From IMG/VR virus record IMGVR_UViG_3300010413_001770, positions 1-64,000 of that record: a stretch of 64,000 nucleotides of DNA. The stretch is one strand, 5' to 3'. The notes below the pieces were generated by a model, which worked only from the letters and a program-made list of their open reading frames with translations, did no database searches and was not told the origin of the DNA. This document shows, one piece after another, positions 1 through 20,324 of this stretch. Source of the stretch: a virus. The position numbers and the translations under genes are program-made. The first letter of the stretch is position 1, and the number at the start of each line of letters is the position of its first letter.

Positions 1-359
1 GCCATCAGCTTGACGTCGAACCCGTCGCCGACCGCGCAATGGGCGTCGAGCTTCATCACGTACGTGCCGCGGGCCGCCCGTACTCCAGCATTGGTGGCGG
101 CCCGCTGCCCGATCGCGGTCGAGTAGTGGAGGACGTTCACCCGAGGATGATCCGCGATCGGCGGGTCCGGCCAGTATCCGTCGCACACTGCGATCACTTC
201 CGTGTTGGCCTTTGCCGCCCGCACCACGTCCGTGATCGTGCGCTCGAGGAAGATCTCGTGGCGGGCCGGGATGATGACCGAGACATCGATCGCCGGGGGA
301 GTGGCCGCGGCAGCGACCGGGATGACTACCTCCCGAACAGTAGCTTCACCGGTCGTCAT
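1..359 (-). CDS. GT2-type glycosyltransferase, partial (runs off left edge)
   Basis: This gene starts at the ATG at 359 and continues past the left edge, so only the first ~119 residues are visible. After a short N-terminal extension they show a GT-A fold: beta strand VSVIIPARHE (residues ~25-34), ACDG-like VCDGYW, and KLDAHC near the end, matching the Asp-containing metal/nucleotide-sugar motif. The LDAHC form resembles polypeptide GalNAc-transferase and related GT2 enzymes. It overlaps the preceding gene (stop at 346) by 14 bases, so the two are translationally coupled. It is the most distal visible member of a glycosyltransferase cluster downstream of a Ser/Pro-repeat tail protein. Donor and acceptor cannot be read from the sequence. 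Confidence 0.8.
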   Translation of the reverse strand, partial: MTTGEATVREVVIPVAAAATPPAIDVSVIIPARHEIFLERTITDVVRAAKANTEVIAVCDGYWPDPPIADHPRVNVLHYSTAIGQRAATNAGVRAARGTYVMKLDAHCAVGDGFDVKLM

Positions 360-1092
360 GGAGCGGATTCCTTCTCGTCTTTCGGCTCGTCTGGTGAAAA
401 AGACCGAATGGATTGAAGTCGACATCGCCACAATAGTACCCGTTGGGAAACATGTAAATGATGGGGCGGTACGGATCGACCTTCCCCTTGCCGGCGTCCA
501 CCCACCGTTGCCACTGCTTGCGAAACAGCCGATCTTCCCCTTGTGGATACGGTCGCTCCACCAGGTCTTCCCGATACCCGCCGAGCTCCCAGAAGACGTC
601 CGCCCGCATGGCAAAGTTGTTCGTGAGCGGCTGGAGCTTCACGCCGTGGGATTGGAGTCGGATCTCAGGCAGTCCATATTTCTGCAACTCCTCGTAATCC
701 TGCGTAAACTCGCCCTCAACCGTCAACACGCCGAACTCGCGCTTGAACTGGATCTTCTGATACTTACTTTTTCGCACGGTATCGATCAACTCCCGGCTCA
801 GGATGTGGTCGATATCCGTCATCAGGAGCATCCGACCGGTCGCTACTCGAGCTCCAGCATTCCTCGCCAAGGCCCACGTCCAGGGGCGGGTGTCCCCCGT
901 CTGCAGGATGCGACACGCGAACGGCGTCGACTCCACCTCGAGTGGCGGGTCACTCCCATCGTCCACGAGCACGAGCTCGACATCGGCTGGTAACCCGATA
1001 CGCCGGAAATGCGCCACTTGCCGCCGCACCACCTCGTGAGAGTTGAGCACCGGGATGACGATCGAGACCCGGGTCTGCCGATCAACACTCAT
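346..1092 (-). CDS. GT2 family glycosyltransferase
   Basis: This 248-residue GT-A protein begins SVDRQTRVSIVIPVLNSHE and contains VLVDDGSDPP, the classic GT2 nucleotide-sugar pocket. TRPWTWALARNAGARVATG followed by LLMTDIDH supplies the expected R-N-x-G helix and the DxD-like metal site. Later EDRLFRKQW fits the ED catalytic base region. The start at 1092 is chosen because its ATG overlaps the TGA of the upstream radical SAM gene (ATGA). Family members transfer a sugar from a nucleotide donor to a glycan, lipid or protein. The substrate is unknown; the genomic context suggests virion glycosylation. Confidence 0.9.
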   Translation of the reverse strand: MSVDRQTRVSIVIPVLNSHEVVRRQVAHFRRIGLPADVELVLVDDGSDPPLEVESTPFACRILQTGDTRPWTWALARNAGARVATGRMLLMTDIDHILSRELIDTVRKSKYQKIQFKREFGVLTVEGEFTQDYEELQKYGLPEIRLQSHGVKLQPLTNNFAMRADVFWELGGYREDLVERPYPQGEDRLFRKQWQRWVDAGKGKVDPYRPIIYMFPNGYYCGDVDFNPFGLFHQTSRKTRRNPLHDDR

Positions 1093-1844
1093 GCCGCCTC
1101 CACGGTAATCGTTCGACGCTCCCTGGCGGTCTTCGGGCACGTCCGGCAATACGGTACTCGTTTCCGTCCACCCGGATGCCTAAGCCCCATCACGACGCGC
1201 ACGTGACCCTCGTGTTCCCACAGACTGGGGATCGGGTCCAGGATCGCGTTCCCCAGGTACACATCTGGTGTGATCTCGTCGCAGCACAGGCACACGTCCC
1301 CTTGGTGGTTGACGATGAGATTACCCGCCGCGTGCCGACAGTGGAACTCGAGCGCTTCGTCATGGCCGCTGCCGCCACGACTGCCAAGAAAGTGCGTACT
1401 CCGGTGCTTCCCTCCGGTGAACCGAATGGCCGTCCGGTAGAATAAACTCCGGATAGTGCCCTTCCGGCCTTCCATCTCACGACTCGGGTACAGCGCAACC
1501 CGAATCGAGTCCACCCATCCGTCCAGGTCAGCTGCCAACCGCTTAGTCAGCATATCTCCGTTCGTGCAGAATAGGACATGTGGGTATCCTAGTTCCTTGG
1601 CCATCCTGACAAACACCGGCAACCTGGGGTCCAGTGTCGGCTCATTATACAAGTTGAATGCCACCCGCCGGACATTCCCCCTCTTCCGACCGGCTTCCAG
1701 TAGACCGACCACGGTCTCCGTCGGCAGGTAATTCTGCGAGAACCACGGTTTGATCCTGTCTCGGTCCGGGTACGTCTGCCGGAGACACGTCACGCACGCC
1801 CGGTTACACCAGGACGACGTTTCAATCTGCAGAACGTGAAACAT
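1089..1844 (-). CDS. Radical SAM protein with SPASM-like C-terminus
   Basis: The 251-residue protein opens with ETSSWCNRACVTC, a CxxxCxxC motif that binds the radical-SAM 4Fe-4S cluster. NLYNEPTLDP and LFCTNGDML match later strands of the partial TIM barrel. The C-terminal third has CRHAAGNLIVNHQGD, CLCCDE and YCRTCPK, a cysteine-rich arrangement like SPASM/twitch auxiliary cluster domains. Such proteins modify peptides, sugars or cofactors by radical chemistry. It lies between a sulfotransferase and a GT2, with ATGA coupling to the latter, so a sugar- or protein-modifying role is likely. The exact reaction cannot be inferred. Confidence 0.87.
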   Translation of the reverse strand: MFHVLQIETSSWCNRACVTCLRQTYPDRDRIKPWFSQNYLPTETVVGLLEAGRKRGNVRRVAFNLYNEPTLDPRLPVFVRMAKELGYPHVLFCTNGDMLTKRLAADLDGWVDSIRVALYPSREMEGRKGTIRSLFYRTAIRFTGGKHRSTHFLGSRGGSGHDEALEFHCRHAAGNLIVNHQGDVCLCCDEITPDVYLGNAILDPIPSLWEHEGHVRVVMGLRHPGGRKRVPYCRTCPKTARERRTITVEAA

Positions 1845-1859
1845 CGGTCGCCGTCTCCG

Positions 1860-2468
1860 TCAGTCCCCAAACGTATACCCGAGTGCCTCGAGATCCGTCC
1901 GGTAGATCCCTGCTACCGTCTCCCGACTCTCATCGTCGTAGTACTCCGTGTACCGCGCGTGCCGACTGGAGTTCCGGTGCGGGAGAATGTGTGTCTCCCC
2001 GATCCGACCGGCAATGTAGGCCCAGTCCCGATGCAGATGCTCGAACCGGCCGACAAACATCTCCCGGATCGGCTCCCCTTCCCGCATGTAGGTGTAGTAC
2101 TGGGCGCGGAAATGCCGGTTCACGTCCGGACCCGTCACGCCCAACACCTCCCGCACATAGGCCGAGAAGCCCCACTGGGGCTCGATCTCGCCGCGCTGCT
2201 GTAGGAAATGGAATGCACTCACGACATAGTCGAACGGATTCCGCACAAACGTGAACCACAGCACGTCGTCCGGGCGCGGGGCGAACATGTTGTCCCAGAC
2301 CGCCTGCCAGTTACGCGGACCACGACGATACCGGACCTGCCGACCGTAGAGCACCCCGAGCATGATCGACTTCTGCGCCGTCTTGGCGTTCCCGACGCAC
2401 GCCCACTGCCCCCGAGCGTCGAGATCCGGCCGCATCCCCTCCAGATACCGAAGTGTCGCGGCGTCCAT
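1860..2468 (-). CDS. Sulfotransferase-like P-loop protein
   Basis: The protein has 202 residues. The start at 2468 overlaps the upstream methyltransferase TGA (ATGA). GNAKTAQKSIMLGVL (residues ~29-43) is a variant of the PAPS-binding P-loop of sulfotransferase family 2 (K-T-A-x-x-S). FTFVRNPFDYVVSAFHFL matches the 3'-phosphate-binding R-x-P...S motif. The rest is helix-rich, ending in KALGY-type sequence (EALGYTFGD) typical of cytosolic carbohydrate sulfotransferases. The predicted role is transfer of sulfate from PAPS to a glycan or other hydroxyl. It is within the glycosyltransferase operon. Confidence is moderate because the P-loop is divergent. Confidence 0.72.
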   Translation of the reverse strand: MDAATLRYLEGMRPDLDARGQWACVGNAKTAQKSIMLGVLYGRQVRYRRGPRNWQAVWDNMFAPRPDDVLWFTFVRNPFDYVVSAFHFLQQRGEIEPQWGFSAYVREVLGVTGPDVNRHFRAQYYTYMREGEPIREMFVGRFEHLHRDWAYIAGRIGETHILPHRNSSRHARYTEYYDDESRETVAGIYRTDLEALGYTFGD

Positions 2469-3130
2469 CAGGCGCGCTCCGATCCGCGCTGCCAGAACGC
2501 GGTCGGCTCGTAGTCCCGGGTCACGTACCAGGGCTCGATCCGGTGACAGTGCGTGTAGGCGTCGACCGCCTGGATGACGCCGGATAAGCGGAAGTGGCAA
2601 TAGTCGTGGACCATCACCAATCCGCCCGTCCGGACCTTGGGGACGAACTGGATGATATCCTGGACCGCCTCGTCGAACGTGTGGTCGCCATCGATGTAGA
2701 CGAAATCCAAGCTCCCGTCCTCGAAGCTGGGGACGGCCATTCGGCTCGTCATACGCAAGAGTGCTACATTCCGGTACTCCGCCAGGTTCGCTTGAGCATC
2801 CCGGTACACCTTCTCCTGCTCCGCCTGGTTGGTCCGATGGTACGCTTGGTACGGGTCGACGCACACGAGCTCGAGTCCCGGGATGACATCCAGCCAGATT
2901 CGTGCGGACTGGCCATACCGCGTCCCGAGCTCCAGCCCGAGTTTCAACCCCATGTCCGCCATGGCGCCCGCGAGCGCCAACCGGCCGTGATTCCGGCCGG
3001 CCCGCGGCGTAGCGAGTATCGGCATGTTGTCCCGGCCGCGGACGAACCGGAAATGCTTCTGGAGGATCCCGTACAGTTCCGCTGCTGGGTCGGTGCGTTT
3101 CCTCTTCCTCTCTTGTTCACGTTTCGGCAT
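2468..3130 (-). CDS. Class I SAM-dependent methyltransferase (Methyltransf_24-like)
   Basis: The 220-residue protein has a basic N-terminus (PKREQERKRKR) followed by a Rossmann methyltransferase core: LGLELGTRYGQSARIW (SAM motif I), LVCVDPYQ (motif II acid), LDFVYIDGDHTFDEAVQDI (motif IV/V with the DGDH signature) and GGLVMVHDY. The DGDH signature is typical of Methyltransf_24 enzymes found in cell-surface sugar loci. The start at 3130 was chosen because it gives a 14-base overlap with the upstream gene. A longer in-frame extension would intrude deep into that gene. Likely role: O-methylation of a sugar in the neighbouring glycan pathway. Confidence 0.85.
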   Translation of the reverse strand: MPKREQERKRKRTDPAAELYGILQKHFRFVRGRDNMPILATPRAGRNHGRLALAGAMADMGLKLGLELGTRYGQSARIWLDVIPGLELVCVDPYQAYHRTNQAEQEKVYRDAQANLAEYRNVALLRMTSRMAVPSFEDGSLDFVYIDGDHTFDEAVQDIIQFVPKVRTGGLVMVHDYCHFRLSGVIQAVDAYTHCHRIEPWYVTRDYEPTAFWQRGSERA

Positions 3131-3839
3131 TGTCTCCCTCGTTGAATATCTCCGTGAGATGGTCGGCGCGCCCCCAACCGGGGATCTCAATCGCTTTGAT
3201 CTCCCCGATGGAGCGCTTCAGGCCCTTACGGCCAATGTAGGTCGGTGACAGTCCTTGCGGATGCGCCACGTTCACGATCGGGTCCGATCCCCACCACTCG
3301 ACCGCCGGAACGGGTGTCACGCCGAGCTGCGTCTCGACGTCTCGGCGCCCGAGCTCCCCGGCGGCTGGACCCCCCTTCTCCCCCGGCCACTTCGTCATTC
3401 GTTCCTCGAGCGCCCCAATGATCACGTCGGTGTGCCCAATCAGGGCAAAGTTCCCCCACTTTCGGACGACGCCGAACATCGGGCGCCCCACCCAGGAGAG
3501 CACCGTCCACCGCGAACGATTGTAAGCTACCGATCCGGGTGGCGGGCGAAACTCATAGAAGTGTTTCCGCGTGTACAGCGTGTCGTCCTCCGCAATCCCA
3601 ATGTAGGGAGTACGCACAAACGTCGCAGCGTTCAACATCTGCCGGTAGACGTTCCAGCCGCTCTTCGGCTCGGTCTGGAGGATATTTGGGTCGCCGAACG
3701 CCACCGGCACTCGGGAGACCGAGATCACGGGCGCGTCGTCGACCGCGTACTTCAGCGTCTCGAGCTGGAAATCCGTCCACCGCGGCCGGAGCTCGTTGTT
3801 GGTCAGGAAGATCACGGTCAGGTCGGCAGTGTCGCTCAC
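3117..3839 (-). CDS. Putative GT-A glycosyltransferase
   Basis: This 240-residue protein begins DLTVIFLTNNELRPRW, a typical first strand of GT-A enzymes. RTPYIGIAEDDTLYTRKH contains EDD, which fits the DxD metal-binding site. Later FALIGHTDVIIGALEERM and EWWGSDPIVNVAHPQG may form the acceptor side. It starts 3 bases downstream of the stop of the Ser/Pro-repeat tail protein, so the two must be co-transcribed. That adjacency is the best clue to its acceptor. It could instead be an inactive GT-fold protein. Donor sugar unknown. Confidence 0.72.
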   Translation of the reverse strand: MSDTADLTVIFLTNNELRPRWTDFQLETLKYAVDDAPVISVSRVPVAFGDPNILQTEPKSGWNVYRQMLNAATFVRTPYIGIAEDDTLYTRKHFYEFRPPPGSVAYNRSRWTVLSWVGRPMFGVVRKWGNFALIGHTDVIIGALEERMTKWPGEKGGPAAGELGRRDVETQLGVTPVPAVEWWGSDPIVNVAHPQGLSPTYIGRKGLKRSIGEIKAIEIPGWGRADHLTEIFNEGDNAET

Positions 3840-3842
3840 CGG

Positions 3843-6545
3843 CTACCTCCTCGGCGGCAGATCGAATCGGCGCAGACGGGAGACGAGAGAGCGGAAGCTC
3901 CTCGATCGTGTCCCGATGTCGGTGAAGTCCTTGATGGCTTTGCGACCGGCGGACGGACTTGCTGACGGGGAAGCGGAGGGGGAAGCGGAGGGGGAAGCGC
4001 TGCCGCTCGGGCTAGCCGACGGGGACTGGGAGGGGGAGGCAGAAGGTGTGGCGCTCGGGCTTGCAGACGGAGTGCCGGACGGAGAAGCGGATGGACTCGC
4101 GGACGGCGTGGCGCTAGGACTGGCAGATGGGGAAGCACTCGGCGTCCCGGATGGGGAAGCGCTGGGAGTAGCCGACGGGCTGGCCGACGGACTCTCCGAG
4201 GGTGAAGCAGAAGGTGAAGCGGACGGCGTTCCGGACGGGGAAGCCGAAGGGGATGCCGATGGGCTTGCTGACGGAGATGCAGATGGACTAGCCGAAGGAC
4301 TGCCGGACGGGCTGGCTGACGGCGTGGCACTCGGGCTAGCGGATGGGCTCTCCGACGGTGTCCCGGATGGGCTCTCGCTAGGGCTAGCACTCGGACTGGC
4401 GCTAGGGCTGGCCGACGGTGAGGCACTCGGGGAAGCAGACACCGACGGACTTGCACTGGGGCTCTCCGAGGGAGACGCCGACGGACTTGCGGACGGAGAC
4501 GCACTAGGGCTGACACTGGGGCTAGCACTCGGGCTAGCCGACGGTGAGGCGCTTCCAGTTACGCTCGGACTTGCCGACGGTGTCCCACTTGGGCTTGCAC
4601 TCGGCGTCCCGGACGGGGAAGCACTGGGACTCGCGGACGGAGTGCCGGACGGGCTTCCACTAGGAGAAGCAGAGGGTGTCCCGCTAGGACTGGCACTTGG
4701 GCTTGCCGAGGGGGAGGCTGACGGACTCGCGGACGGGCTTGCCGACGGGGAAGCGCTCGGCGATGCAGACGGGCTCTCCGATGGTGTACCACTTGGACTT
4801 GCTGATGGACTCCCAGACGGAGATGCCGACGCGCTCGGACTGGCACTGGGGCTAGCCGACGGTGACGCACTCGGACTAGCACTGGGAGTACCGGACGGCG
4901 TGCCACTCGGACTCTCCGACGGAGAAGCGGAGGGAGAAGCACTCGGCGTTCCGCTTGGGCTTGCAGACGGAGACTCTGACGGGCTCGCCGACGGACTAGC
5001 ACTAGGACTAGCGCTCGGGGTACTCACCGTCGTGTCGTCATACCGTTCCCGGAACCACAGATCCTCGTAATTCGCAAGTCCTACGACGACCCAGTTGTCC
5101 TCGTGATCCTGTATGAGTGCCGTCCCGTCTGAGTACGGGTCGACATCGTCGTCCGACGCTGCTCGAGTCCGGAGGTGGTTCGCCGCAGTCCCTAGAGCAC
5201 TGACGTGAATCACCGCCCAGTACGTCACGCCGGACGACAGCTGCACGTCCCCGGTGAACTCAAAAAAGTGCTGCCCTGCCGTCGTGCCGAAGTTGGCGAT
5301 ATTGTACGACGCCGACGTGTCGAGCACCGTTCCGATGTCCGGCTCGCCTCCGCTATCCGGATGGATTTCTACCCACACGGTCCCGGTCGGGGTGCCCACC
5401 TTCCAGACGTAGGCCTCGAATCCGCAGATGTCCGCCGTTACGGACGGGACGAACGACTGGCCAACGTGGCGGAAGTCGTTGTATCCGAAATTCACATCGG
5501 AGTCTTCGTCCGTCTGTTCCTGGTCGACAATACAGTTCGGACCCGGAGAGGGGCTAGCCGACGGCGAGGCGGATGGACTCGCACTCGGTGTTCCACTGGG
5601 GCTTGCCGACGGTGTTCCACTGGGGCTGGCACTGGGAGACGCCGAGGGGGACGCGCTCGGACTTGCACTGGGCGTACCGGACGGACTCTCCGAGGGACTA
5701 GCCGACGGTGAGGCTGAAGCGCTCGGACTCGCACTGGGCGTACCGGACGGAGATCCACTCGGGCTCGCCGAGGGACTCTCTGACGGGCTTGCTGACGGAC
5801 TCGCCGACGGCGAGGCGGATGGCGACCCCGAAGGACTAGCCGACGGGGAAGCGGACGCCGAGGCGCTGGGAGACGCGCTCGGGCTCGCCGATGGACTCGC
5901 GCTGGGAGATGCGGATGGAGACGCGCTCGGGCCGCCGCCCACACTACTCGGCGCCGTGTCTCCGTTGGTGCCTACGCCCAGCTGATAGATTGTTGCCGAG
6001 GAGGTCAGACTGTAACAACTTCCACCTGCCCATCCTGCTGCTGTAGGACCGTTGGGGTCTGTTGTATCAATATCCCACCCAGGTTCCGCCCCACCATCGG
6101 CCCAGATCTTTGCTTGACACGTTGTATCACTAGATCCATTGATTCTAAATCGTACCCAATAGTCGGTATCTGCGCTTATAGTAACCCCTGTTGTTGCAAC
6201 CTGCACAGGTGTATCAGAACCGCTACAATAATAGATCCGAAACGAACTTGAAAAAACTCGGACTGCATATAGTGTAGCTGATTCGTCGCCGCCGGAACCG
6301 CGAGAAAAAAGAATGTAATTAGCGGCTGAGAGGCTGCTGAAAGTTACCTTTATTAGTATTTCTACATCATAATGATTGCCATCTTCAACATCAGTCCACG
6401 ATCTGTTAACCCAGTCATTCGTCGCGCCAGTTGTTTGAACAAGATTTCCACCAGAAACACTCCAATCCGTAGACGGACTGGTGTTGTATCGAGCTGTCCA
6501 GTCAGTTGCAAAATCGGCGAAGTCGTCAGTAAAATATGTTGCCAC
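3843..6545 (-). CDS. Large tail/surface protein with mucin-like Ser-Pro repeats
   Basis: This 900-residue protein has five blocks. Residues 1-203 look like a beta-sandwich (concanavalin/LamG-like, FTDDFADFATDW onwards). Residues ~204-336 are low-complexity SASPS/SGTPS repeats. Residues ~337-508 form a second beta-rich domain (QSFVPSV...VTYWAVIHV), similar to choice-of-anchor or carbohydrate-binding modules. Residues ~509-865 are a second repeat tract. The C-terminus is a short basic tail. The start is a GTG one base after the previous TAG. It lies at the end of the tail gene series, suggesting a receptor-binding or decoration protein. The repeats are rich in Ser/Thr and Pro like O-glycosylated mucins, and glycosyltransferase genes follow immediately. 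The DNA of the first domain is clearly AT-richer than the repeats. Confidence 0.8.
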   Translation of the reverse strand: MATYFTDDFADFATDWTARYNTSPSTDWSVSGGNLVQTTGATNDWVNRSWTDVEDGNHYDVEILIKVTFSSLSAANYILFSRGSGGDESATLYAVRVFSSSFRIYYCSGSDTPVQVATTGVTISADTDYWVRFRINGSSDTTCQAKIWADGGAEPGWDIDTTDPNGPTAAGWAGGSCYSLTSSATIYQLGVGTNGDTAPSSVGGGPSASPSASPSASPSASPSASPSASASASPSASPSGSPSASPSASPSASPSESPSASPSGSPSGTPSASPSASASPSASPSESPSGTPSASPSASPSASPSASPSGTPSASPSGTPSASPSASPSASPSPGPNCIVDQEQTDEDSDVNFGYNDFRHVGQSFVPSVTADICGFEAYVWKVGTPTGTVWVEIHPDSGGEPDIGTVLDTSASYNIANFGTTAGQHFFEFTGDVQLSSGVTYWAVIHVSALGTAANHLRTRAASDDDVDPYSDGTALIQDHEDNWVVVGLANYEDLWFRERYDDTTVSTPSASPSASPSASPSESPSASPSGTPSASPSASPSESPSGTPSGTPSASPSASPSASPSASPSASASPSGSPSASPSGTPSESPSASPSASPSASPSASPSASPSASPSASPSGTPSASPSGSPSGTPSASPSASPSGTPSASPSGTPSASPSVTGSASPSASPSASPSVSPSASPSASPSASPSESPSASPSVSASPSASPSASPSASPSASPSESPSGTPSESPSASPSATPSASPSGSPSASPSASPSASPSASPSASPSGTPSASPSASPSESPSASPSATPSASPSGTPSASPSASPSATPSASPSASPSGTPSASPSATPSASPSQSPSASPSGSASPSASPSASPSASPSAGRKAIKDFTDIGTRSRSFRSLVSRLRRFDLPPRR
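3951..5019 (-). repeat. Ser-x-Ser-Pro coding repeat tract 1
   Basis: This is a degenerate 12-base tandem repeat encoding about 356 residues of S-[AGEVT]-[ST]-P units. The protein pattern is nearly invariant, whereas synonymous codons vary strongly from unit to unit (agc/tcg/tct/tcc for Ser; ccg/cca/ccc/cct for Pro). That argues for selection on the protein repeat rather than recent DNA slippage. Confidence 0.9.
5541..5937 (-). repeat. Ser-x-Ser-Pro coding repeat tract 2
   Basis: A second tract in the same gene, of about 132 residues, linking the N-terminal beta-sandwich to the middle domain. It shows the same four-residue period and codon scatter as the larger tract. Confidence 0.9.
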
Positions 6546-6546
6546 A

Positions 6547-6936
6547 CTAGCTCTCTATATCGACCACATCACCTGCTTCGATATTTATTGTTGTGTGCAT
6601 CTGATGAACGACATAATGCAGAACCTCACGCATAGTCATCTGGTTCTTGATTGCGCTTGTTTCAAACCCAGCATGGCCTAAAGCGTTTATTGTCACATTA
6701 CGTACATTCGGCGGCAAACTCCCCCACGTATTATCAAGCGCTGTATCAGGCCACAAATAAATATCCGGATCGGCACTGAGATCAGTAAGATCGGAGGCTG
6801 CCAACTGTCCAACAGCCCAGTTGAATCCTTGTTTTGACCAAACTCGGCTGTTGCATGGGTATAGATTCGTTTTTGGAACTCTCGTTTCCTCGCCTTCATA
6901 ATCACCCATCGGGCAAACAAACCAGCGTTTCATCAC
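6547..6936 (-). CDS. Hypothetical tail-region protein
   Basis: The 129-residue protein has no family I recognise. It begins MMKRWFVCPMGDYEGEETRVPKT and has two Cys in the first 30 residues. It is mixed in composition, with no signal peptide or membrane segment. TMREVLHYVVHQMHTT near the end is probably helical. A ribosome-binding sequence (ggagaag) precedes the ATG. It lies one base upstream of the GTG of the large Ser/Pro-repeat protein, so translational coupling is likely and a chaperone or partner role is plausible. It belongs to an AT-richer block shared with the first domain of that neighbour. Confidence 0.65.
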   Translation of the reverse strand: MMKRWFVCPMGDYEGEETRVPKTNLYPCNSRVWSKQGFNWAVGQLAASDLTDLSADPDIYLWPDTALDNTWGSLPPNVRNVTINALGHAGFETSAIKNQMTMREVLHYVVHQMHTTINIEAGDVVDIES

Positions 6937-7125
6937 TTCTTCTCCATTTAGCTAATTCCGAGGACGCTGTTTTCGGCGATGACGCTAAAGACTACCGGCA
7001 TATAGACCTCCGTAAATTCTCAACTGAGTTTACTGTCCGAATCGTCTCGAAAACTCCAACAAACACTCCGACCGGACTCTTCTAAGGTCACTCCCGTCGG
7101 AGTCCCCGTCCCCGTCCGGGTCCTC

Positions 7126-7503
7126 TCACTGCCGCCGCAAATTCTTCACGCGCCCCGGCGCTCTCGGCGGTCGGAAGATCTCATCCGAGTAGTCGCTCCG
7201 CAGACCGAACGCGTTATAGGCCACTGCCGAGAAGTAGTACACTTGATACTCGTTCGGGAGCTCCACCACGAACTCCGTCACGGTGCCGGCGTCCACTTCC
7301 GAGTCGTACCCGGTCCATGCCGGATCGGCCCGGGAGCGGACGCCGTAGTAAACGATATACCCCGTGACGTTCTCTTCCGGCGGGTTGGGGTCCCACGCCA
7401 GTGTGACGGGTTCGGCGTTGGCGACCGCCGCGGCCAGAACGAGCGCCGCAACGATAAACCCCAGAACGAGTCCACGATGCCCCCGACGCACCTCAGTCGT
7501 CAT
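7126..7503 (-). CDS. Secreted fibronectin type III-like protein
   Basis: The 125-residue protein has an N-terminal signal peptide: basic RRGHRG, hydrophobic LVLGFIVAALVLAAAVANA, then a likely cleavage site. The mature part VTLAWDPNPPEENVTGYIVYYG...YYFSAVAYNAFGLRSDYSDEI is a clear fibronectin type III fold, with the W in strand B and the YxxxVxAxNxxG strand F motif. Export of a small phage FN3 protein suggests action in the periplasm or at the cell surface, or attachment to virions during lysis. The start overlaps the preceding gene by 11 bases. Confidence 0.78.
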   Translation of the reverse strand: MTTEVRRGHRGLVLGFIVAALVLAAAVANAEPVTLAWDPNPPEENVTGYIVYYGVRSRADPAWTGYDSEVDAGTVTEFVVELPNEYQVYYFSAVAYNAFGLRSDYSDEIFRPPRAPGRVKNLRRQ

Positions 7504-7708
7504 TGTCCGGGATGTCCAGCGTCCGCCGAATCATGCTACAGAGGGGGAGAATCGTCGCGTCGTCGAGCTTCGACTCCGACTTCTCCACGGCGTCCTCGAT
7601 CGCGTCGAGCGCTTTGTCGAGGCCCCCCTTGACGATCTCCGTCGGGAGAAGATTGACGAGCTGCGGCACGAGGACGTTGAGGACGTTGAGGAAGATAGAC
7701 CCTGCCAT
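7493..7708 (-). CDS. Small helical hypothetical protein
   Basis: The protein is 71 residues long. It starts MAGSIFLNVLNVLVPQLVNLLPTE, an amphipathic to hydrophobic stretch too interrupted for a confident membrane helix, followed by a charged helix (EDAVEKSESKLDD). A good ribosome-binding site (gaaggagat) precedes the ATG. It overlaps the FN3 protein gene, so the pair is co-translated. A holin or lysis-accessory role was considered because of the hydrophobic N-terminus and the secreted neighbour, but there is no positive evidence. Family unknown. Confidence 0.6.
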   Translation of the reverse strand: MAGSIFLNVLNVLVPQLVNLLPTEIVKGGLDKALDAIEDAVEKSESKLDDATILPLCSMIRRTLDIPDNDD

Positions 7709-7888
7709 GGATGATCTCCTTCGGTGAGAGGCGACTCGAACACTGCCCTCTACCTACAATGGTCCGCGCGCAGTGCTCGGTCTATGTGGACGATCCAGCA
7801 GAACTGGCAACGCGTGTTCGGGAGGCCAAACACCCATAAATTGATCAACCGCCCACACACGCATCGGGGCAGATCGGGTAGAGAGGGA

Positions 7889-8152
7889 CTAGGGCTTCTT
7901 CTCGCCGGAAGTCTTTTCTCCTCCGCCCCCTCCTCCGAGTCGCTTCACTTCCGCGATGCCCGCTAGACCAAAGTCCTTGAGCATCCCCGTGACGGCATCC
8001 ATCATGCCGGCCTCGAACAACGTCATCGACTCGTAGTTCATTCCGGACCACGTCATAGATCCGGAGTCGAACATCGGCTCCTCGTCCTCCTTGCCGATCT
8101 CCTCGACGACGAATTGTAGCTTCACGCGGTATCTGGAATCAGGTTGTGCCAT
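7889..8152 (-). CDS. Hypothetical protein
   Basis: The start at 8152 is chosen for its strong ribosome-binding site (aaaaggagac), giving 87 residues. The sequence begins MAQPDSRYRVKLQFVVEEIG, a likely beta-strand region. A Met-rich middle follows (TWSGMNYESMTLFEAGMMD), and the end is flexible and basic with a Gly run (GGGGGGEKTSGEKKP). The charged flexible tail and the position among tail genes suggest a small virion or assembly protein. No family recognised. Confidence 0.6.
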   Translation of the reverse strand: MAQPDSRYRVKLQFVVEEIGKEDEEPMFDSGSMTWSGMNYESMTLFEAGMMDAVTGMLKDFGLAGIAEVKRLGGGGGGEKTSGEKKP

Positions 8153-8256
8153 TTCCTGTCTCCTTTTCAATCTCTATTCAGGATGTTATACTTAATCGCG
8201 ACAGATAATCAGACTCTCAGGCGCTCTCTTTGTAATCAGCTAGCGGTTATCGGTCT

Positions 8257-8292
8257 ACGGTCCTACGGTCCTACAGTCCTACAGTCCTACGG
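8257..8292. repeat. 9-base tandem repeat
   Basis: Four near-perfect copies of a 9-base unit (tcctacggt / tcctacagt) just after, and slightly overlapping, the stop of the preceding minus-strand gene. On the minus strand each copy contains TAG, so the block reads as repeated stop codons in one frame. Confidence 0.8.
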
Positions 8293-8607
8293 CGTCCTCT
8301 CCGCAGGTCCGGCAGGTGCAGCTGCCGGGCCGGGACTCGGCGTCATCGCCGACAATCTGTTGACAAGGGACTGCATCGTTGCGTCGCTCGCGCCCTCTGC
8401 GGGACTCGTCGCCATGATCAGCTCAACGATCTTCCCAGTGATCGCATTGCCGATCTGGTACATGTTCGCCTGCTGGTTGACGGCGTTCGCCATCATCATG
8501 TTGGTCCAGTAAGCCGGACCACCCGAAGTCACGACCGTGTCGTTGATCTTGCGGAACTCGGTCGCTTCGGCGGCCTCTCGGCCGATTTCACCGGTGTCGT
8601 CTGCCAT
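8287..8607 (-). CDS. Small hypothetical protein, weak RebB-like pattern
   Basis: The protein has 106 residues, with an ATG preceded by ggagg. The N-terminus is acidic and helical (ADDTGEIGREAAEATEF). The middle, INDTVVTSGGPAYWTNMMMANAVNQ and following QQANMYQIGNAITGKIVELI, has the spacing of hydrophobics and NAVNQQ seen in RebB/'killing trait' small proteins. The similarity is by eye only. The C-terminus is Pro/Ala-rich. It lies between two tail-region genes, and a terminator lies upstream of it. It may be a phage structural or accessory protein of unknown role. Confidence 0.6.
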   Translation of the reverse strand: MADDTGEIGREAAEATEFRKINDTVVTSGGPAYWTNMMMANAVNQQANMYQIGNAITGKIVELIMATSPAEGASDATMQSLVNRLSAMTPSPGPAAAPAGPAERTP

Positions 8608-8683
8608 GGTTCCTCCGTATCAGAGAGAGCGCCTGAGAGTCTCGTGCCTGCCGTTCGAGTATAACCTATCCCTTGCCGCCAAG

Positions 8684-8724
8684 AAAAATCGGGGGCTGAG
8701 GGGTCGCGATTCCCTCAGCCCCCG
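8684..8724 (-). terminator. Rho-independent terminator
   Basis: A perfect 13-base stem (cgggggctgaggg at 8690-8702, its complement at 8712-8724) with a 9-base loop, followed on the minus strand by ATTTTTC. It sits 77 bases past the stop of the carbohydrate-binding tail protein and should end or attenuate the tail operon there. Genes to its left then need read-through or their own promoter. Confidence 0.88.
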
Positions 8725-8800
8725 AACGGGCTTGAACTCCCCCGACCCAGTAGGAGTCGTCGCCCGGTGCTTGGCGGGCCCGTTCATACCCAACGCCCGA

Positions 8801-9802
8801 TCAAACCTCATACGCGTAGCCGTCCAGGTTGAAATCCGTCGGCTCGTCGTCATCGATCGTGACGGTAAATTCTCCCCGTTCGTTGAGCGCGACCCACAGA
8901 TATCCGGGCCGGGCAATCGGCGTGTATGTCGCCGGAATCGACCCTCCCGAGTTGTTGTGTTGCGCGTCCCACACCACGACACCGTATCCGTCCGTGATCG
9001 TCACTTGGACGGATTCGGACGCGGCGACCTCAATCAGGTAGTACACGGCCACCTTTGTGGGCCGCTCCCCGTCCAACACCCCAGACCCGAGCGCCTCATC
9101 CGTCACCGTCACCGTGTAGGTCGTCGTCGTCGGGCTGACCGGGTCCAGTAACTGTAGCGGCGATCCCCACGCGACATTCACTCTCCCGTGGTACACGCGG
9201 CACTCGACTTGGTCGAACTTCACGTTCTGGCCCGCTACCGCAGTGGCGCCATCCCCAGCCTGGAGACGGATCTTGTAGTAGAACGCGCCGGCTGGGACAA
9301 CCGTCTGGAGACTGTACTTGTCCCAGAATGTCGGCGTGTCCCCCTCGTCCACGAGCGTGACGGTCGAGAGCGCCGCCGGCGTGGGGCTCGTGTCGTCGAA
9401 GAACAGAATATGCGCTTTGTGCGGGAGCCCCCCAGCCGAGTTCTCCCAGCTCCCCTTCACGTAGTAACTGAGCTCGAGTCGCTGCCCCTCGGCACACTCC
9501 AGGAAGGTATCGTTCGTCACCGTCCCAGTCCCGGTCGTGGCGCCGAATGAAAACTTGACGGACTGGCGCCCGTGAATCGCATCCGAGCTATCGAGTGACA
9601 ACGTTGCACTCGATTCCGTCACGTCCCAGCTATCCGGGTCGCCGTCCGCGTTGGTATCGAGCTCGAAGCTACCGTTTGCCGGGACACCTCCTCCCCCAGC
9701 TCCGATCCGACTGTTGAGGTCCGAGAGGTAGTCGATCACCCCCTCGGCCCAACTCACCTTGGTTGCTTCCCCGGTAACGGGTTTATCCGGCAGGGTCGCC
9801 AC
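8801..9802 (-). CDS. Tail protein with carbohydrate-binding-like domain
   Basis: The 333-residue protein has a helical N-terminus (WAEGVIDYLSDLNSRIG) and a Gly linker. Then comes NGSFELDTNADGDPDSWDV, the opening of a CBM4/9-like jelly-roll domain with an Asp-rich Ca-binding loop. Further jelly-roll strands (HGRQSVKFSFG, LELSYYVKG, TFWDKYSLQTVVPAG, FYYKIRLQAG) continue to residue ~215. The C-terminal ~120 residues are another beta-rich domain. Such architectures are common in receptor-binding or appendage proteins. It is downstream of the hub gene and upstream of a terminator, so it is the last gene of the main tail transcript. Confidence 0.72.
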   Translation of the reverse strand: MATLPDKPVTGEATKVSWAEGVIDYLSDLNSRIGAGGGGVPANGSFELDTNADGDPDSWDVTESSATLSLDSSDAIHGRQSVKFSFGATTGTGTVTNDTFLECAEGQRLELSYYVKGSWENSAGGLPHKAHILFFDDTSPTPAALSTVTLVDEGDTPTFWDKYSLQTVVPAGAFYYKIRLQAGDGATAVAGQNVKFDQVECRVYHGRVNVAWGSPLQLLDPVSPTTTTYTVTVTDEALGSGVLDGERPTKVAVYYLIEVAASESVQVTITDGYGVVVWDAQHNNSGGSIPATYTPIARPGYLWVALNERGEFTVTIDDDEPTDFNLDGYAYEV

Positions 9803-9819
9803 GCATCATCCTCCTATCT

Positions 9820-12702
9820 CTACACCCACACGCTCACGTCGTAGCTGTCTTCGTCATCCGGGTCGGCAAACCCGTCATCGTCGCACCAGTAGCCGGAGTT
9901 CTCCCGGGCCCACTTTTTCTCGGCGGCGGACCAGCCGCTGTCCCACTGGTCGGCACCGACCGACGTGGTGACGTCCATCCAGCTCGGGAAGTCGTTCCCG
10001 TCCTCGACCCAGAATCCAGACCGGTCCTCGAGTCCCCGCCACGGCGAGAGCACCAACCCGACTGTCCCTCCTTTGAGATCCCGGGACACCTCGAGGACTT
10101 CGTAGATACCGGCCGGAGGGAGGAGTCGGGCACCCGAGCTCGCGATCACCGACTGCGCGATCTCGACCGGATCTCCAGGGACGAGCTCGAACGCGCATGG
10201 AGAGACAGCCGGAAGATCCCAGATTCGCGTTGGACGGCCCCGCAACCCGACGATCCGCACCGCCCACAGACGCGCCGCCGGGCGGTTATAGAACGGGACT
10301 TCGTCCGACTCGGTCTTGTGGGCGGGCAGCCCTCCCCGGTACTTGTACTTATTCCCCGTGTGCGTGAACAGTCGCCCGCTATCCGCCGCCAGGTCCCGCC
10401 TGTAGGTCGCCGACGCGACAGTCCTCACGTCCCGGGCATCCACCTCCTCGATCGGTTCGCTCAAGATGTGGTCTTCGGTCAACCGAGCTTCCGCCACGTC
10501 TCCCGGTCTCGGCTGCCACGCACTCACGACGTATTGGCCGTCGAGATCCGTGTAGAAGACGCCGTTACACCAGGCGGCGATATCGGAGCACAGATCCACG
10601 AGATCGGTCGATTCATCTACGTAGAGGCTAATCTCGTGGATCGGCACGCTCAGCCCGGTGGCGTCGTCCGTGCCGAGGTTCCAGTCCGACGCTGCCGCAG
10701 CAAACGCGGCCGTATCCAGATCCGCAGCCGACCCGCCCCATGTCGAGAGCAGATCCTCGATCACGTCGGCCGGGTTGTAGATGAGCACTCCGTCTCCGTC
10801 CACGTACCCGGAGAACCACACCAGAACTTCCCCCGACACGAGCGAGCTATCCTCTTCCGCGGCGGTCGCGTCGTTTGTCCAGTTCGGAATCGTGATCGTG
10901 CCGGCGTCCAAGTCGTACGAGTACGCCACATCGACGCTGTTGACCGTGACCCGGTCCACACTCCCGATCGAGTGATACGTCGTGTCGGCGAGCTGAAACG
11001 TCCCGGTCGTGATGTTGATGCAGATCGGCGCCGCGTTCTGGATCACGCCGTACGCGAGCGGTACGACCGAGCTTTGGCTGTCGGTGTCCATGCTCGGGTA
11101 ATCGTCGCTCGAGTAGCGGTTGAGCGGAATGTTGATGCCAATCTTCTCTTTCCGGTCCTTCACGTCGAGGCGAGCGTCCGGATAGCTGGTATCCCAGCCA
11201 CGGATCGCCCACACGCCTTGCGAGTAATAGTCCGCGTACGCCATTTCGATCATGTCGCCGCCGGCACCCGGGTAGTCGATCCCGAGCTTCAGATGCGCGT
11301 ACCCGGCGTCCCAGTCGAGCTCCCGAATGGAGTCGAAGAACCCGTCTCCGTTCTCGAGCGTGATCGCGCCGCCACCGATCTGAGCGTCCGAACCGTCGAA
11401 CAGCGGCGGGATGCGGAGGTTGATCGTGGGTGCCCCCTTGATGCGCGGCTCGTAGCTCACGGGGAGAGAATCGAGGTCGGTTCGCGTGAATACCTTCCCG
11501 ACTGTGTTGGACCACTGGAATTCCACTTCCGCCTGCATGTAGTTTGACCGCGGATCGCCGCTCCCCGTCCAGGTGATCTCCCCGGTCGCCGTGTCCCAGC
11601 TCCAGTCCCCACCGTCCTGCTCGACACCATTCTTGAATAGCCGCGTGACGATCCACTCGAGCGCGGTACACGTGTAGCTGCCGTCGGAGTTCTCGACCCA
11701 GTAGGGAATGTGTTGCCGGGCCCGGACCTCGGCCAGGAACACTCGAGTCGCGTTCGTGGCGCACAGAATGCTCGTGTCCCCAGGAGTGGGGGAGGGGGAG
11801 CTCGACGGGGACGCACTCGGCGTGGCAGAGGGCGACGTGGACGGCGTCCCCGACGGGGTGCCGCTCGGACTCGACGAGGGTGTAACGGACGGGGATACGC
11901 TTGGGGTACCGCTTGGACTCGACGACGGACTGCTGCTCGGCGTTTCCGAGGGACTGGAGGACGGACTGGAGCTAGGAGTCGCAGACGGGGACGCCGAGGG
12001 GCTTGCAGACGGGGAGCTCGACGGGGACGCACTCGGGCTCGTGCTGGGGGTCCCGGAGGGGGAGACACTGGGACTCGCGCTGGGGGTCCCAGACGGAGAG
12101 GACGACGGCGTCCCAGACGGGCTTGAGCTCGGCGACGAGGATGGAGTCCCAGACGGAGAGGACGACGGCGTGCTCGATGGCGTGACACTCGGGCTCGCAC
12201 TCGGCGTACCAGACGGACTCGAACTAGGTGTTCCGGAGGGGCTTGAGCTAGGGGTTACGCTCGGGCTAGCAGATGGACTTGAGCTGGCAGTGGATTCTAA
12301 TAATTCCCACTCAGTTCCTACTGAGTCGTTGTTCCCTGGTGTTCCGTACACCCGATACCACTGATACGATACCGAGTTAGAAAACGCGATTTCATCCCAG
12401 CCGGATGTTTGAGTTAGCCCGGCCAGGGATGTTAGCGTATCCCAATCACCGTCGACACCATCCGTTGAATTGTTTGATCCCTGTAGGCTAGCGGACTGAT
12501 AGTTGTCTCTGGCTTGCTGATTAAGAATGTGTAACCGAATCGTGTTGACTATAGCTGCGTTTGACTCCAGGTCAATAGCGATATATGAGAAATTCTGAAT
12601 ATACGTCCCAGTATCATTATCCGATATGAGCGTGCCATCGGTATGACCCGGGAAGGTTGCATTCGTGTAGTGAGGGTACGCTGCGTTGGTAACGTCTGCC
12701 AC
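9820..12702 (-). CDS. Tail tip/hub protein with discoidin-like N-terminus and Ser-Pro linker
   Basis: The protein has 960 residues. Residues 1-136 resemble an F5/8 type C (discoidin) lectin fold (IAIDLESNAAIVNTIRLHI, QWYRVYGTPGNN). Residues ~137-308 are S-[STGA]-[ST]-P repeats. Residues ~309-960 form a large domain typical of tail tip/hub proteins: beta-rich PTINLRIPPLFDGSDAQIGGGAITLENGDG... and a later ALELTAE-like WQPRPGDVAEARLTEDHILSEPIEEV. The order after the distal tail protein supports the hub assignment. The GTG start overlaps the upstream TAG. The N-terminal domain DNA is AT-richer than the rest, suggesting a grafted adhesin module. Confidence 0.78.
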   Translation of the reverse strand: MADVTNAAYPHYTNATFPGHTDGTLISDNDTGTYIQNFSYIAIDLESNAAIVNTIRLHILNQQARDNYQSASLQGSNNSTDGVDGDWDTLTSLAGLTQTSGWDEIAFSNSVSYQWYRVYGTPGNNDSVGTEWELLESTASSSPSASPSVTPSSSPSGTPSSSPSGTPSASPSVTPSSTPSSSPSGTPSSSPSSSPSGTPSSSPSGTPSASPSVSPSGTPSTSPSASPSSSPSASPSASPSATPSSSPSSSPSETPSSSPSSSPSGTPSVSPSVTPSSSPSGTPSGTPSTSPSATPSASPSSSPSPTPGDTSILCATNATRVFLAEVRARQHIPYWVENSDGSYTCTALEWIVTRLFKNGVEQDGGDWSWDTATGEITWTGSGDPRSNYMQAEVEFQWSNTVGKVFTRTDLDSLPVSYEPRIKGAPTINLRIPPLFDGSDAQIGGGAITLENGDGFFDSIRELDWDAGYAHLKLGIDYPGAGGDMIEMAYADYYSQGVWAIRGWDTSYPDARLDVKDRKEKIGINIPLNRYSSDDYPSMDTDSQSSVVPLAYGVIQNAAPICINITTGTFQLADTTYHSIGSVDRVTVNSVDVAYSYDLDAGTITIPNWTNDATAAEEDSSLVSGEVLVWFSGYVDGDGVLIYNPADVIEDLLSTWGGSAADLDTAAFAAAASDWNLGTDDATGLSVPIHEISLYVDESTDLVDLCSDIAAWCNGVFYTDLDGQYVVSAWQPRPGDVAEARLTEDHILSEPIEEVDARDVRTVASATYRRDLAADSGRLFTHTGNKYKYRGGLPAHKTESDEVPFYNRPAARLWAVRIVGLRGRPTRIWDLPAVSPCAFELVPGDPVEIAQSVIASSGARLLPPAGIYEVLEVSRDLKGGTVGLVLSPWRGLEDRSGFWVEDGNDFPSWMDVTTSVGADQWDSGWSAAEKKWARENSGYWCDDDGFADPDDEDSYDVSVWV
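11781..12294 (-). repeat. Ser-x-Ser-Pro coding repeat tract in hub protein
   Basis: About 171 residues of degenerate four-residue units, here with more Ser and Thr (SSSPSGTPS, SVTPSSTPS) than the tracts at 3951-5937. It separates the discoidin-like domain from the hub body and is an obvious candidate for O-glycosylation or an extended stalk. Confidence 0.9.
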
Positions 12703-16484: not shown

Positions 16485-17582
16485 CTAAGACAACGGTCCG
16501 GACTCAAAGTACTTACACTGAGACTGTAGCGTATTCCAATTACTGGTAATAGTAATACCTGGAGATCCGGCGGAACTCACGTATGTATTACCATTCCCGT
16601 CTACTGAATAGTCATCCAAGTCGAACACTTTCACAGAATCCAGATAACATCGTACGTTTCTCCCTTCAACTTCTATTTTCATGTCGTGCTCATCTGATAA
16701 CGGCCACTCATAGGTACTACCCGCTTGCCACTCTAATACAGCTTCTGGATCGCCTGAACTGGTCGCTTTCCTCCACCGGATCAATGAAAACCGCCCAACG
16801 TTGGAAAAGTTGTCCAAAATCTTCCACACGAAGGCGTACAGATCATCGGTTGGACTTCCGACTTCTCCGGACCCGATAGCCCGAGCCAATACTCCGAAGA
16901 AATCTCCCCCTAGTCCAGCTCCAGCTCGAAGAAACGTCCCCAACGTGTAATAGTCAGCCGACGAGTCAACCTCTTCCGCCCAGTAGTAACTCTCACCGTA
17001 AGAATCAAACGCAGACTCATTCGTGGCATACAGTAGAATAGCAGATCGTTTCGGCGGAGTTTGAAATGTACTATATGTCCAGGATTGGCCACTATCCATA
17101 GTGTGGTCGATCAGATCCGTATTGGTAGCACCGACAAAGTTATCGTAGTAACTATCCGCTACTGGAGGAGTTGGAGGAACAACTATAGGTCCTGGCTTAC
17201 CATCAATCTTTATATCTACTCTACAAATCACCTCCTCGCCGAGATCTGCCACCACGTCGACATTAACCACGAACCCGTCGAGAGTAAACGCGTCCCCCGA
17301 CTGGAGGTCGAGCGTGTAGTCCTCCGGGTCGTCGCTCTCCAACCCGTCGATGAAATCCTCATACTCTGTTCTCAGGAAATTGAGCGCGAGAGCTAGGCTT
17401 CCACCGTCCCGCATGCCGGCGATGAACTCGCGGTAGCCGCCGTCCGAGTCCATGTTCGTGACGTCGATCAGGTCTACTGCGCGCCCGTTCCAGCTCAAGT
17501 CCACAATCTCGGCAATCAGAGCCCCGCCGCTCCCAAACCCGAGCGTGGAGTTCTTGCCCGCTAGTGCACTCGAACGCGCCAT
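16485..17582 (-). CDS. Tail tube protein 2 with C-terminal LamG-like domain
   Basis: The 365-residue protein's first ~130 residues (ARSSALAGKNSTLGFG, VDLSWNGRAVDLIDVTNMDS, DGGYREFIAGMRDGGSLALA) are clearly homologous to the shorter tail tube protein encoded just upstream. After a Pro-rich hinge (GPIVVPPTPPVADSYY) comes a ~220-residue jelly-roll domain resembling LamG/concanavalin (LYAFVWKILDNFSNVGRFSLI, DEHDMKIEVEGRNVRCYLDS). The start at 17582 is chosen because it aligns with the paralogue's ARSSA start. The extra domain would project from the tail surface, like the Ig-like domain of lambda gpV. Its DNA is much AT-richer than the tube part, indicating domain acquisition. Confidence 0.85.
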   Translation of the reverse strand: MARSSALAGKNSTLGFGSGGALIAEIVDLSWNGRAVDLIDVTNMDSDGGYREFIAGMRDGGSLALALNFLRTEYEDFIDGLESDDPEDYTLDLQSGDAFTLDGFVVNVDVVADLGEEVICRVDIKIDGKPGPIVVPPTPPVADSYYDNFVGATNTDLIDHTMDSGQSWTYSTFQTPPKRSAILLYATNESAFDSYGESYYWAEEVDSSADYYTLGTFLRAGAGLGGDFFGVLARAIGSGEVGSPTDDLYAFVWKILDNFSNVGRFSLIRWRKATSSGDPEAVLEWQAGSTYEWPLSDEHDMKIEVEGRNVRCYLDSVKVFDLDDYSVDGNGNTYVSSAGSPGITITSNWNTLQSQCKYFESGPLS

Positions 17583-17737
17583 CCGACCTCCTGCTACCGC
17601 TACCACTACCGCCGCCGATCCTCAAAAAACCGCCCACCCCTACCCTCCGACGGGCCGAGGTACTGGAGAGCGAAAGGAGGGAACCCTCGTTCCCCCGGCC
17701 GCATTCGGACGTCCCAGGAGGATCGGTGCTTACGTCA

Positions 17738-18142
17738 TCATGTCGTCATGGTCGGCTGGCCCGTGATCTTGAACGTCACGGTACACAGGACAGCGTCGTC
17801 CATCGAGGACTGAATGTCGACATTCGTCACGAAGGCCGAGAAGTCGAACTCGGTCGCTCCGGAATCCCCGAAGATGATTTGGTAGGACTGCGGATCGTCC
17901 GACTCGAGGTCCACGATCAGGTCGTCGTACTCGTCTCGAATCCAGTTGAGATCGATCGACACCTCGCCGCCGTCCTTGAACGTGCTGATCCACTCCTTGT
18001 AGCCGCCGTCCGAGTCCATATTCGTCACTTCGGCCAGATCGCGGGCTCTCCCAGTCCAGTTGATGTTCTTCACCTCGGCGACGATGGTCGATCCGCGGTA
18101 GAAATCGGTGCTCTTTCCTGCGATTGCGCTTGACCTTGCCAT
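17738..18142 (-). CDS. Tail tube protein 1
   Basis: The 134-residue protein begins ARSSAIAGKSTDFYRG and contains KNINWTGRARDLAEVTNMDS, DGGYKEWISTFKDGGEVSID and LESDDPQSYQIIFGDSG, the pattern of siphovirus major tail (tube) subunits. It is upstream of the longer paralogue with the LamG-like extension and downstream of the tail terminator gene. Having both a plain and a decorated subunit suggests a mixed tube, or a tube plus a specialised section. About 130 bases of intergenic DNA separate the two paralogues. Confidence 0.85.
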   Translation of the reverse strand: MARSSAIAGKSTDFYRGSTIVAEVKNINWTGRARDLAEVTNMDSDGGYKEWISTFKDGGEVSIDLNWIRDEYDDLIVDLESDDPQSYQIIFGDSGATEFDFSAFVTNVDIQSSMDDAVLCTVTFKITGQPTMTT

Positions 18143-18175: not shown

Positions 18176-18589
18176 CTAGACAGATGGTGTGCGGTGAATG
18201 CGGAACGAAAGCAGGTAAACGGGTCGGTCTACCTCGTCGTAGGTCACGAGCTGGATAGAGGAGGTCGGCCAGATCGCGATGTAGGTGGAGTTTCCCCAGG
18301 ATTCGGCGGTCACGAGGCGGAGGACGTCCCAGATCGCCTTGGCGGTCGCGTAGGCGGTCTGAGCCCCGGTATTGCGGACGCCGCGGACGCGGATGTTGAC
18401 GACGGGGCGCTCGTATTCGTACTCGGAGCGGCCATCCGGGTCAAACCCGGCGACGTCAAATACCGTGACGGCTGCGTCGGGGGAGGCCGGTTCGCGATGG
18501 ACGAAGAGCTCCGTTCCGAGCGTCAGAGCCAGACCGGAGTCGTCCGCCAGCATGAGTGCCACGTCGTACGCCGGAGAGTTGGCCGTCAT
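18176..18589 (-). CDS. Tail terminator / minor capsid-like protein
   Basis: The 137-residue protein begins SPAYDVALMLADDSGLALTL and contains GTELFVHREPASPDAAVTVFD, NIRVRGVRN and AYATAKAIWDVLR, the layout of siphovirus tail terminator proteins (Minor_capsid_3/gpU-like alpha-beta fold). The C-terminal IQLVTYDEVDRPVYLLSFRIHR is also typical. It overlaps the preceding gp10-like gene by 4 bases (ATGA) and precedes the tail tube gene, which is the classic order. Confidence 0.8.
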   Translation of the reverse strand: MTANSPAYDVALMLADDSGLALTLGTELFVHREPASPDAAVTVFDVAGFDPDGRSEYEYERPVVNIRVRGVRNTGAQTAYATAKAIWDVLRLVTAESWGNSTYIAIWPTSSIQLVTYDEVDRPVYLLSFRIHRTPSV

Positions 18590-19095
18590 CTCTCAGCCCC
18601 CCGCATCCGAGTGATTGCCCGACTGAGCGCGACCCGGATGTCTCGACCGATCCGGCTATAGTTGGTCATGAACGCCGTCCAGAGGAACGCATACCCGGGC
18701 CGGGCATGAACCGCCGGAGCATACACCGCCGAGTACCCCGCCATGCCGCTGATTTTCGCGCTCGCCATGAGTTGCCGATTCCGGACCTTGTGGGCCGCAA
18801 TCATCGCCGCGTGCTGGCCAATCATCTCCGGCATCGTGGGGAGGCCGCGGCCCATGCGGGGGACGAACGCCCCGTCGGATTCCACGCGTCCATCCGGAGC
18901 GGCGGTAGCGAATGCCGAAGCGCGCAGGTTCCCCTGGTCGACCGGCGTCGCGACCCGGGCCGCCCGCCGGATATCGTTCACTCCGTTCCAGATCGGCTCG
19001 GCCACCTCTTTGATCATGTTGTCCACGACCCGGACGCTGTTCTCGCGAATCCCCTCGAGCCGCACGTGTACCGTGAACCGAGCCCCGGCTGGCAT
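18586..19095 (-). CDS. HK97 gp10-like head-tail completion protein
   Basis: The 169-residue protein starts at an ATG overlapping the upstream TGA (ATGA). RFTVHVRLEGIRENSVRVVDNM is followed by DIRRAARVATPVDQGNLRAS, the hallmark R-A-A..TPVDTGxLRAS motif of HK97 gp10 family proteins. AVYAPAVHARPGYAFLWTAF fits the conserved YAxxVxx...Y/FL segment near the end. It lies between the connector and the tail terminator, as expected. Confidence 0.87.
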   Translation of the reverse strand: MPAGARFTVHVRLEGIRENSVRVVDNMIKEVAEPIWNGVNDIRRAARVATPVDQGNLRASAFATAAPDGRVESDGAFVPRMGRGLPTMPEMIGQHAAMIAAHKVRNRQLMASAKISGMAGYSAVYAPAVHARPGYAFLWTAFMTNYSRIGRDIRVALSRAITRMRGAER

Positions 19096-19445
19096 CAGAG
19101 AATCGCTTTCCGGACCGTGATCGTCCCGGCTACGTTCGGCGTGGACTGGTAGACGCGGATTGCGTACGCGGCGGCGAGGAGCATCGGGTTGGTGATCTCC
19201 TCCGCGCTCAAGCTCGAGAGGCTTCCCTTCCAGAGAACACCCCCGACCTCGAGTTCCTGGTCGGCATGCACGATCGACCGAGAGACGAACGTGTCTCCCA
19301 TACTGGTCTGGAAGCGCTCCGCCTTGTCGACCCACCGACCAGTGATCTCGACCGGCGTGTCATACGTGTAGCCGCCCGTCCCGTCCGGGGTGGGCGCCGC
19401 CCAATACACCAACGCGTGAATCAGATAACGGTCGACCCAGCTCAT
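19095..19445 (-). CDS. Head-tail connector / head closure protein
   Basis: The 116-residue protein begins MSWVDRYLIHALVYWAAPTPDG and has GGYTYDTPVEITGRWVDKAERFQTSMGD, then DQELEVGGVLWKGSLSSL. The GRW..K...F....G......V.aDqdlevGg pattern is typical of small beta-barrel head-closure proteins (gp16/gp9-like). It is followed with ATGA overlap by the gp10-like gene. In transcription order it directly follows the block of sugar-metabolism genes, so the head module is interrupted just before it. Confidence 0.77.
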   Translation of the reverse strand: MSWVDRYLIHALVYWAAPTPDGTGGYTYDTPVEITGRWVDKAERFQTSMGDTFVSRSIVHADQELEVGGVLWKGSLSSLSAEEITNPMLLAAAYAIRVYQSTPNVAGTITVRKAIL

Positions 19446-20134: not shown

Positions 20135-20136
20135 GG

Positions 20137-20298: not shown

Positions 20299-20324
20299 GG
20301 GGATGTCCCCGTCCGCTCTCCGGG

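Follow-up and report, generated by a model that had tools for sequence, protein, structure and literature searches.

Alternating-serine tracts in tail-region proteins and an adjoining glycosyltransferase cluster in an uncultured tailed phage: a putative virion O-glycosylation module

Serine-rich-repeat proteins (SRRPs), such as Fap1, GspB and PsrP, feature alternating serines split by A, V, T, E and other residues. They are encoded next to a variable set of glycosyltransferase (GT) genes, and are O-glycosylated inside the cell (PMC6973325). Staphylococcal Ser-Asp (SDR) proteins are similarly glycosylated at Ser dipeptide repeats by SdgA and SdgB, which are encoded next door, and are shielded in this way from proteolysis (PMC3794999). 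Glycosylation of phage virions has been shown so far in few phages (mycobacteriophages). According to two reports, the mycobacteriophages Che8, Corndog and Myrna decorate their own virion proteins by means of their own GTs (PMC12363180, PMC12619734), and the glycans are reported at the C-termini of capsid and tail-tube subunits (PMC12619734). The locus described here resembles the mycobacteriophage systems for the presence of phage-encoded GTs near virion genes, but differs from them because the putative sites are (S-x)n tracts, and not protein C-termini.

The window, i.e. the whole stretch of DNA that was analysed, covers positions 1 to 64,000 of a virus record of 67,331 bases (IMG/VR IMGVR_UViG_3300010413_001770). 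Terminase, portal, capsid, major tail and tape-measure genes are all present in the window, and the DNA is therefore that of a tailed phage, with a GC content of 62%. No end repeat was found in the 67,331-base record. A GT2 gene is cut at base 1, and comparison with the closest relative, L002, located the remainder at the far end of the record (L001 6708-7331), leaving about one base unexplained where the two ends meet. Since both ends fall inside the same GT2 gene, the record probably represents a nearly complete circular map. A 1,163-aa ORF (window 55998-59489) joins a uracil-DNA glycosylase domain to a DNA polymerase A, and includes an HNH endonuclease motif. Two genes resemble major tail protein genes (16485-17606 and 17738-18142), and the product of the longer one carries an additional domain at its C-terminus, beta-rich by eye. 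In L002, a gene judged by eye to be sulfotransferase-like (1946-2584) is flanked by the presumed genes for the major tail protein and the tape measure.

Serine tracts and the adjoining gene cluster

Two minus-strand genes encode the putative acceptors. Tail B (3843-6545, 900 aa) is made of an N-terminal beta-rich domain (residues 1-196), modelled with low confidence (pLDDT 52), a first tract (197-336), a middle domain and a second tract (505-867). The two tracts, 140 and 363 aa long, are composed of S/T/P/A/G and contain 31 and 86 S-x-[ST]-P motifs, respectively. Tail A (9820-12702, 960 aa; phrog_8917) is encoded after the tape-measure gene and the gene in the Dit position. Its N-terminal domain is followed by a tract of 173 aa (residues 136-308, 43 S-x-[ST]-P motifs) and by a conserved tail-tip-like body. 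The density of motifs in the tracts is far above chance, and the statement of an earlier note on this DNA, that two tail proteins carry long tracts of this type, is borne out. The same note called the tracts mucin-like, which fits less well than a likeness to bacterial serine-rich-repeat glycoproteins. Alternate positions are Ser or Thr in about 99% of cases, while the x lane accommodates A, P, G, E, V and some S, P being common. The repeat is better described as (S-x)n, often with Pro at x, than as S-x-[ST]-P.

AGY and TCN serine codons are mixed in the tracts in a ratio of about 1:1, and the 12-nt units share only 47-54% identity with one another. These features rule out recent DNA slippage as the origin of the tracts, so the pattern is an old one, maintained at the level of the protein. 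Long open frames with LADG-type repeats on the opposite strand (3796-5070 and 11708-12364, both plus) are a by-product of the tract codons. Tract sequences were not found by text search in published papers.

Tail B ends 3 bases before the first gene of the cluster, p6 (3117-3839, minus). The p6 protein matches no family in Pfam, PHROG or NCBIfam, and no PDB sequence in a profile search. Its AlphaFold2 model, built with 11 homologues, has a pLDDT of 87, and Foldseek comparison to the PDB retrieved the GT-A glycosyltransferases SpsA (E 2e-6), WrtF, B4GALNT1 and EXTL2. An EDD motif is nearly invariant across p6 homologues. The confident model predicts a GT-A fold for p6, a putative enzyme whose family has no name and whose EDD corresponds to the acidic metal-binding motif of GT-A enzymes. 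In the cluster, p6 is a candidate first or dedicated transferase. The earlier claim that a tract gene ends 3 bases before a GT-A gene is thus upheld at the level of the predicted fold.

Five more genes, assigned by profile search, follow on the minus strand. They encode a Methyltransf_24/TylF-like methyltransferase (2468-3130), a sulfotransferase of the Sulfotransfer_2 type (1860-2468), which matches also the PHROG galactose-3-O-sulfotransferase (E 2e-14), a radical SAM protein with a SPASM domain (1089-1844), a GT2 glycosyltransferase (346-1092), and the 5' part of a second GT2 (1-359). Gene starts were placed by comparison with L002, those of the methyltransferase, the sulfotransferase and both GT2 genes being refined in this way. 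Neighbouring genes overlap by a few bases or are separated by 15-base gaps, as in coupled operons, and the whole cluster comes after the tail module. The chain listed in the earlier note is confirmed, except that the last GT2 is interrupted by the contig end, with the other half at the opposite end of the record.

A second island of sugar genes is found between capsid and major tail genes (18586-29021). All the following members are on the minus strand, and are possible contributors to the same chemistry: a Sulfotransfer_3 sulfotransferase (19442-20239), a methyltransferase fused to a GT9-like domain plus a PHROG glycosyltransferase region (20325-23201), an SDR, a cupin isomerase-like gene and a split transketolase, all pertinent to sugar biosynthesis (24510-27030), and a sialyltransferase-like gene (phrog_4603, E 1e-31; 28221-29021). 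With the addition of this set, many phage genes appear devoted to glycan chemistry.

Tracts and glycosyltransferases in other genomes

Two pattern scans of IMG/VR for S-x-[ST]-P identified tracts in many viruses. A strict in-frame filter was passed by 53 loci, and 53 records matched by the same patterns, but lacking a true tract, served as controls. The gene-neighbourhood search that the earlier note had recommended revealed a clear link: 31 of 47 tract records carry GT2 genes, often within 600 bp of the tract, compared with 7 of 53 controls (p=4.8e-8), the contigs being fragments and partly non-independent. The nearest GT2 is 39-550 bp from the tract in several records. In three of them (L031, L114, L139) a gene judged by eye as capsid-like is followed by the tract gene, and this directly by GT2; in L031 an epimerase, a methyltransferase and a p6 homologue come next. 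The pairing of tract and glycosyltransferase recurs in dozens of other environmental phages.

The p6 profile matched ORFs in 14 of the 53 tract loci, and in none of about 165 other loci. A wider search, carried out with an alignment seeded with proteins from tract loci, retrieved 80 p6 loci. A tract was present within the fetched +-10 kb in 62 of these, always on the p6 strand, and four further loci carry shorter tracts; several tract-less loci end close to a contig edge. The 80 loci fall into 33 clusters at 60% identity, of which 28 include a tract. Sugar-nucleotide genes, GT2 and methyltransferases are the typical neighbours of p6. A census of 145 neighbouring proteins counted GT2 (36), Methyltransf_24 (16), other methyltransferases, TOD1/MUCI70 (6), RGP (4), UDP-glucose dehydrogenase (2) and SPASM (2). 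Queries of the p6 family gave zero matches among 50,697 GenBank phage records, and the system was not found in GenBank phages by any of the queries used, namely p6 homologues, one GT2, the body of tail A and a tract protein of the head-linked type.

The link was also monitored in 23 records that share the capsid family of the window phage, or are close to it. GT2 is present in all five records with a tract vs 5 of the 18 without (p 0.0075, or 0.017 when a near-duplicate is left out). Among the five, p6 is found in the window phage and L002 only. The other three have GT2 and lack p6, so p6 is not required everywhere. The tail A body occurs without a tract in L380. In the within-family test on tail A the sole tract-less relative is distant, and located on a 6-kb contig.

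A single scan of 84,980 species genomes with p6 alignment A4 resulted in seven confirmed cellular matches, all in Patescibacteria MAGs; a tract gene is near p6 in three of the seven. Among sampled Patescibacteria genomes, p6 was found in 4/287. Part of the phages hosting p6 and tracts may infect Patescibacteria. The MAG contigs L367 (17771-20656), L368 (16489-17616) and L371 (13336-20304) feature p6-family islands along with very long alternating-serine genes, which could be either prophage or surface genes; one of them encodes 2,323 aa.

Proposed function and alternative explanations

Tracts, operon, predicted GT-A fold of p6, recurrent linkage and selection on serines together make it probable that the phage encodes a module for protein O-glycosylation, and that the alternating-serine tracts of its own tail-region proteins serve as acceptors. 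Once these proteins have been translated in the infected cell, p6, alone or with one of the two GT2 enzymes, would transfer a sugar from a nucleotide-sugar donor to Ser/Thr hydroxyls in the (S-x)n tracts, which would be unfolded. The remaining GT enzymes would extend the glycan, and the methyltransferase and the sulfotransferase would cap it, methyl and sulfate steps being possible on the basis of the gene families. The glycosylated product would become part of the tail, where it would form an extended spacer, coated with sugars, between domains, and either protease shielding or stiffness of the spacer is the likeliest benefit. As judged from sequence, sugars attached by the phage probably decorate its own particle. 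The earlier note had advanced the same idea, of a phage glycan attached to the repeats of the phage's own tail; the coupling of the two gene sets is sustained by GT2 enrichment, p6-tract linkage and serine selection, while attachment stays a putative step.

Alternatively, the tracts may be nothing more than disordered spacers that separate lectin-like domains, with the GT cluster acting elsewhere, e.g. on the host surface, as a surface-modification or conversion cassette. This is unlikely, yet several observations favour it. The breadth of the GT2 family, whose members have many targets, counts against glycosylation of the tracts. For 11 of the 32 records with S-type tracts, no GT2 lies closer than 10 kb (two of the 11 have a distant GT2, and most, not all, are short fragments), and the neighbours sampled at ten S-type loci without a nearby GT2 were ordinary head and tail genes plus an epimerase, with no GT. 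Only 3/12 T-type tracts vs 21/32 S-type tracts have GT2 within 10 kb (p 0.02), so S/T/P-rich linkers can exist alone. GT2 genes are also found without tracts. The earlier note had indicated repeats lacking GTs, and GTs lacking repeats, in related phages as findings contrary to its proposal. Both are thus encountered, but two proteins related to tail A and tail B that have no tract conform to the proposal, with no GT2 in their records, one of which is only 6 kb. Moreover, the similar islands of Patescibacteria genomes probably serve surface proteins, and sugar genes of Patescibacteria phages have been read as host-surface genes (PMC12911398).

Selection on the serines speaks against this alternative. 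Strictness of the serine lane is not something a spacer requires, and still purifying selection on this lane is strong, whereas the x lane drifts. Among L222, L228 and L231, which have homologous tracts, 230/245 positions are identical in the serine lane and 133/245 in the x lane. Silent and non-silent codon differences are 125 and 15, respectively, in the serine lane vs 84 and 112 in the x lane (p 2e-19, from three pairs that are not independent). A strict serine lane would be needed for a modified hydroxyl, and unneeded for a mere flexible linker. The link between p6 and tracts holds in addition in both directions, and the tract of tail A sits inside a protein of the tail module. All this argues against plain spacers.

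It is very unlikely that the serines are modified without sugar, e.g. by phosphorylation or sulfation, or that the alternation is structural, so that the serines line one side of an extended chain. Alternating residues would indeed place serines on one strand face, and the cluster includes a sulfotransferase. However, GT2 is the commonest family at p6 loci, and neither kinases nor acyltransferases are among the 25 families shown. Hardly credible is the assumption that the cluster puts sugars on phage DNA (hypermodified bases), tract adjacency being incidental: phage GTs often act on DNA (cited in PMC12619734) and the methyltransferase of the cluster (2468-3130) has a weak PHROG DNA-methyltransferase label, but homologues of thymidylate synthase/hydroxymethylase (PF00303) are absent from the record, in a search in which positive controls worked, and the linkage to serine tracts would be left unexplained. 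A search for TET/JBP (PF12851) gave no match either in the record or in any control.

Beyond the window phage, we lean towards the view that tract glycosylation represents a widespread, undescribed phage system, which combines a non-Pfam GT-A family with alternating-serine tracts in head- or tail-associated proteins, is found in diverse uncultured phages and shared with Patescibacteria loci, and would be the viral counterpart of SRR glycoproteins. If so, the (S-x)n tract plus p6 would be a sequence signature of glycosylated virions across many uncultured phages, and p6 plus an (S-x)n peptide a defined minimal pair for testing protein O-glycosylation by a phage enzyme. Phage 'auxiliary' sugar genes now taken as host-surface genes, e.g. 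those of Patescibacteria phages, would also be open to another reading.

Comparison with SRR and SDR glycosylation

The phage locus shares with SRRPs the alternating-serine repeat domain, Ser/Thr occupying about all alternate positions, and the adjacency of the putative acceptor gene to GT genes. It differs from them in that the proteins belong to a phage tail region, Pro is frequent in the x lane, and p6 is of another GT family. The proximity of p6 to tail B is likewise reminiscent of SDR proteins, where GT genes adjoin the acceptor gene, but the x lane holds A/P/G/E/V in place of Asp, the GT families are others, and the proteins are of phage, not of the cell wall. No protein of the cluster matched the GtfA/GtfB priming pair in Pfam or NCBIfam, and Asp is not listed in the x lane of the tracts. 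The system is therefore not a member of either group; by analogy, it appears to work like SRR-adhesin and SDR glycosylation, with tail-region proteins as the putative acceptors.
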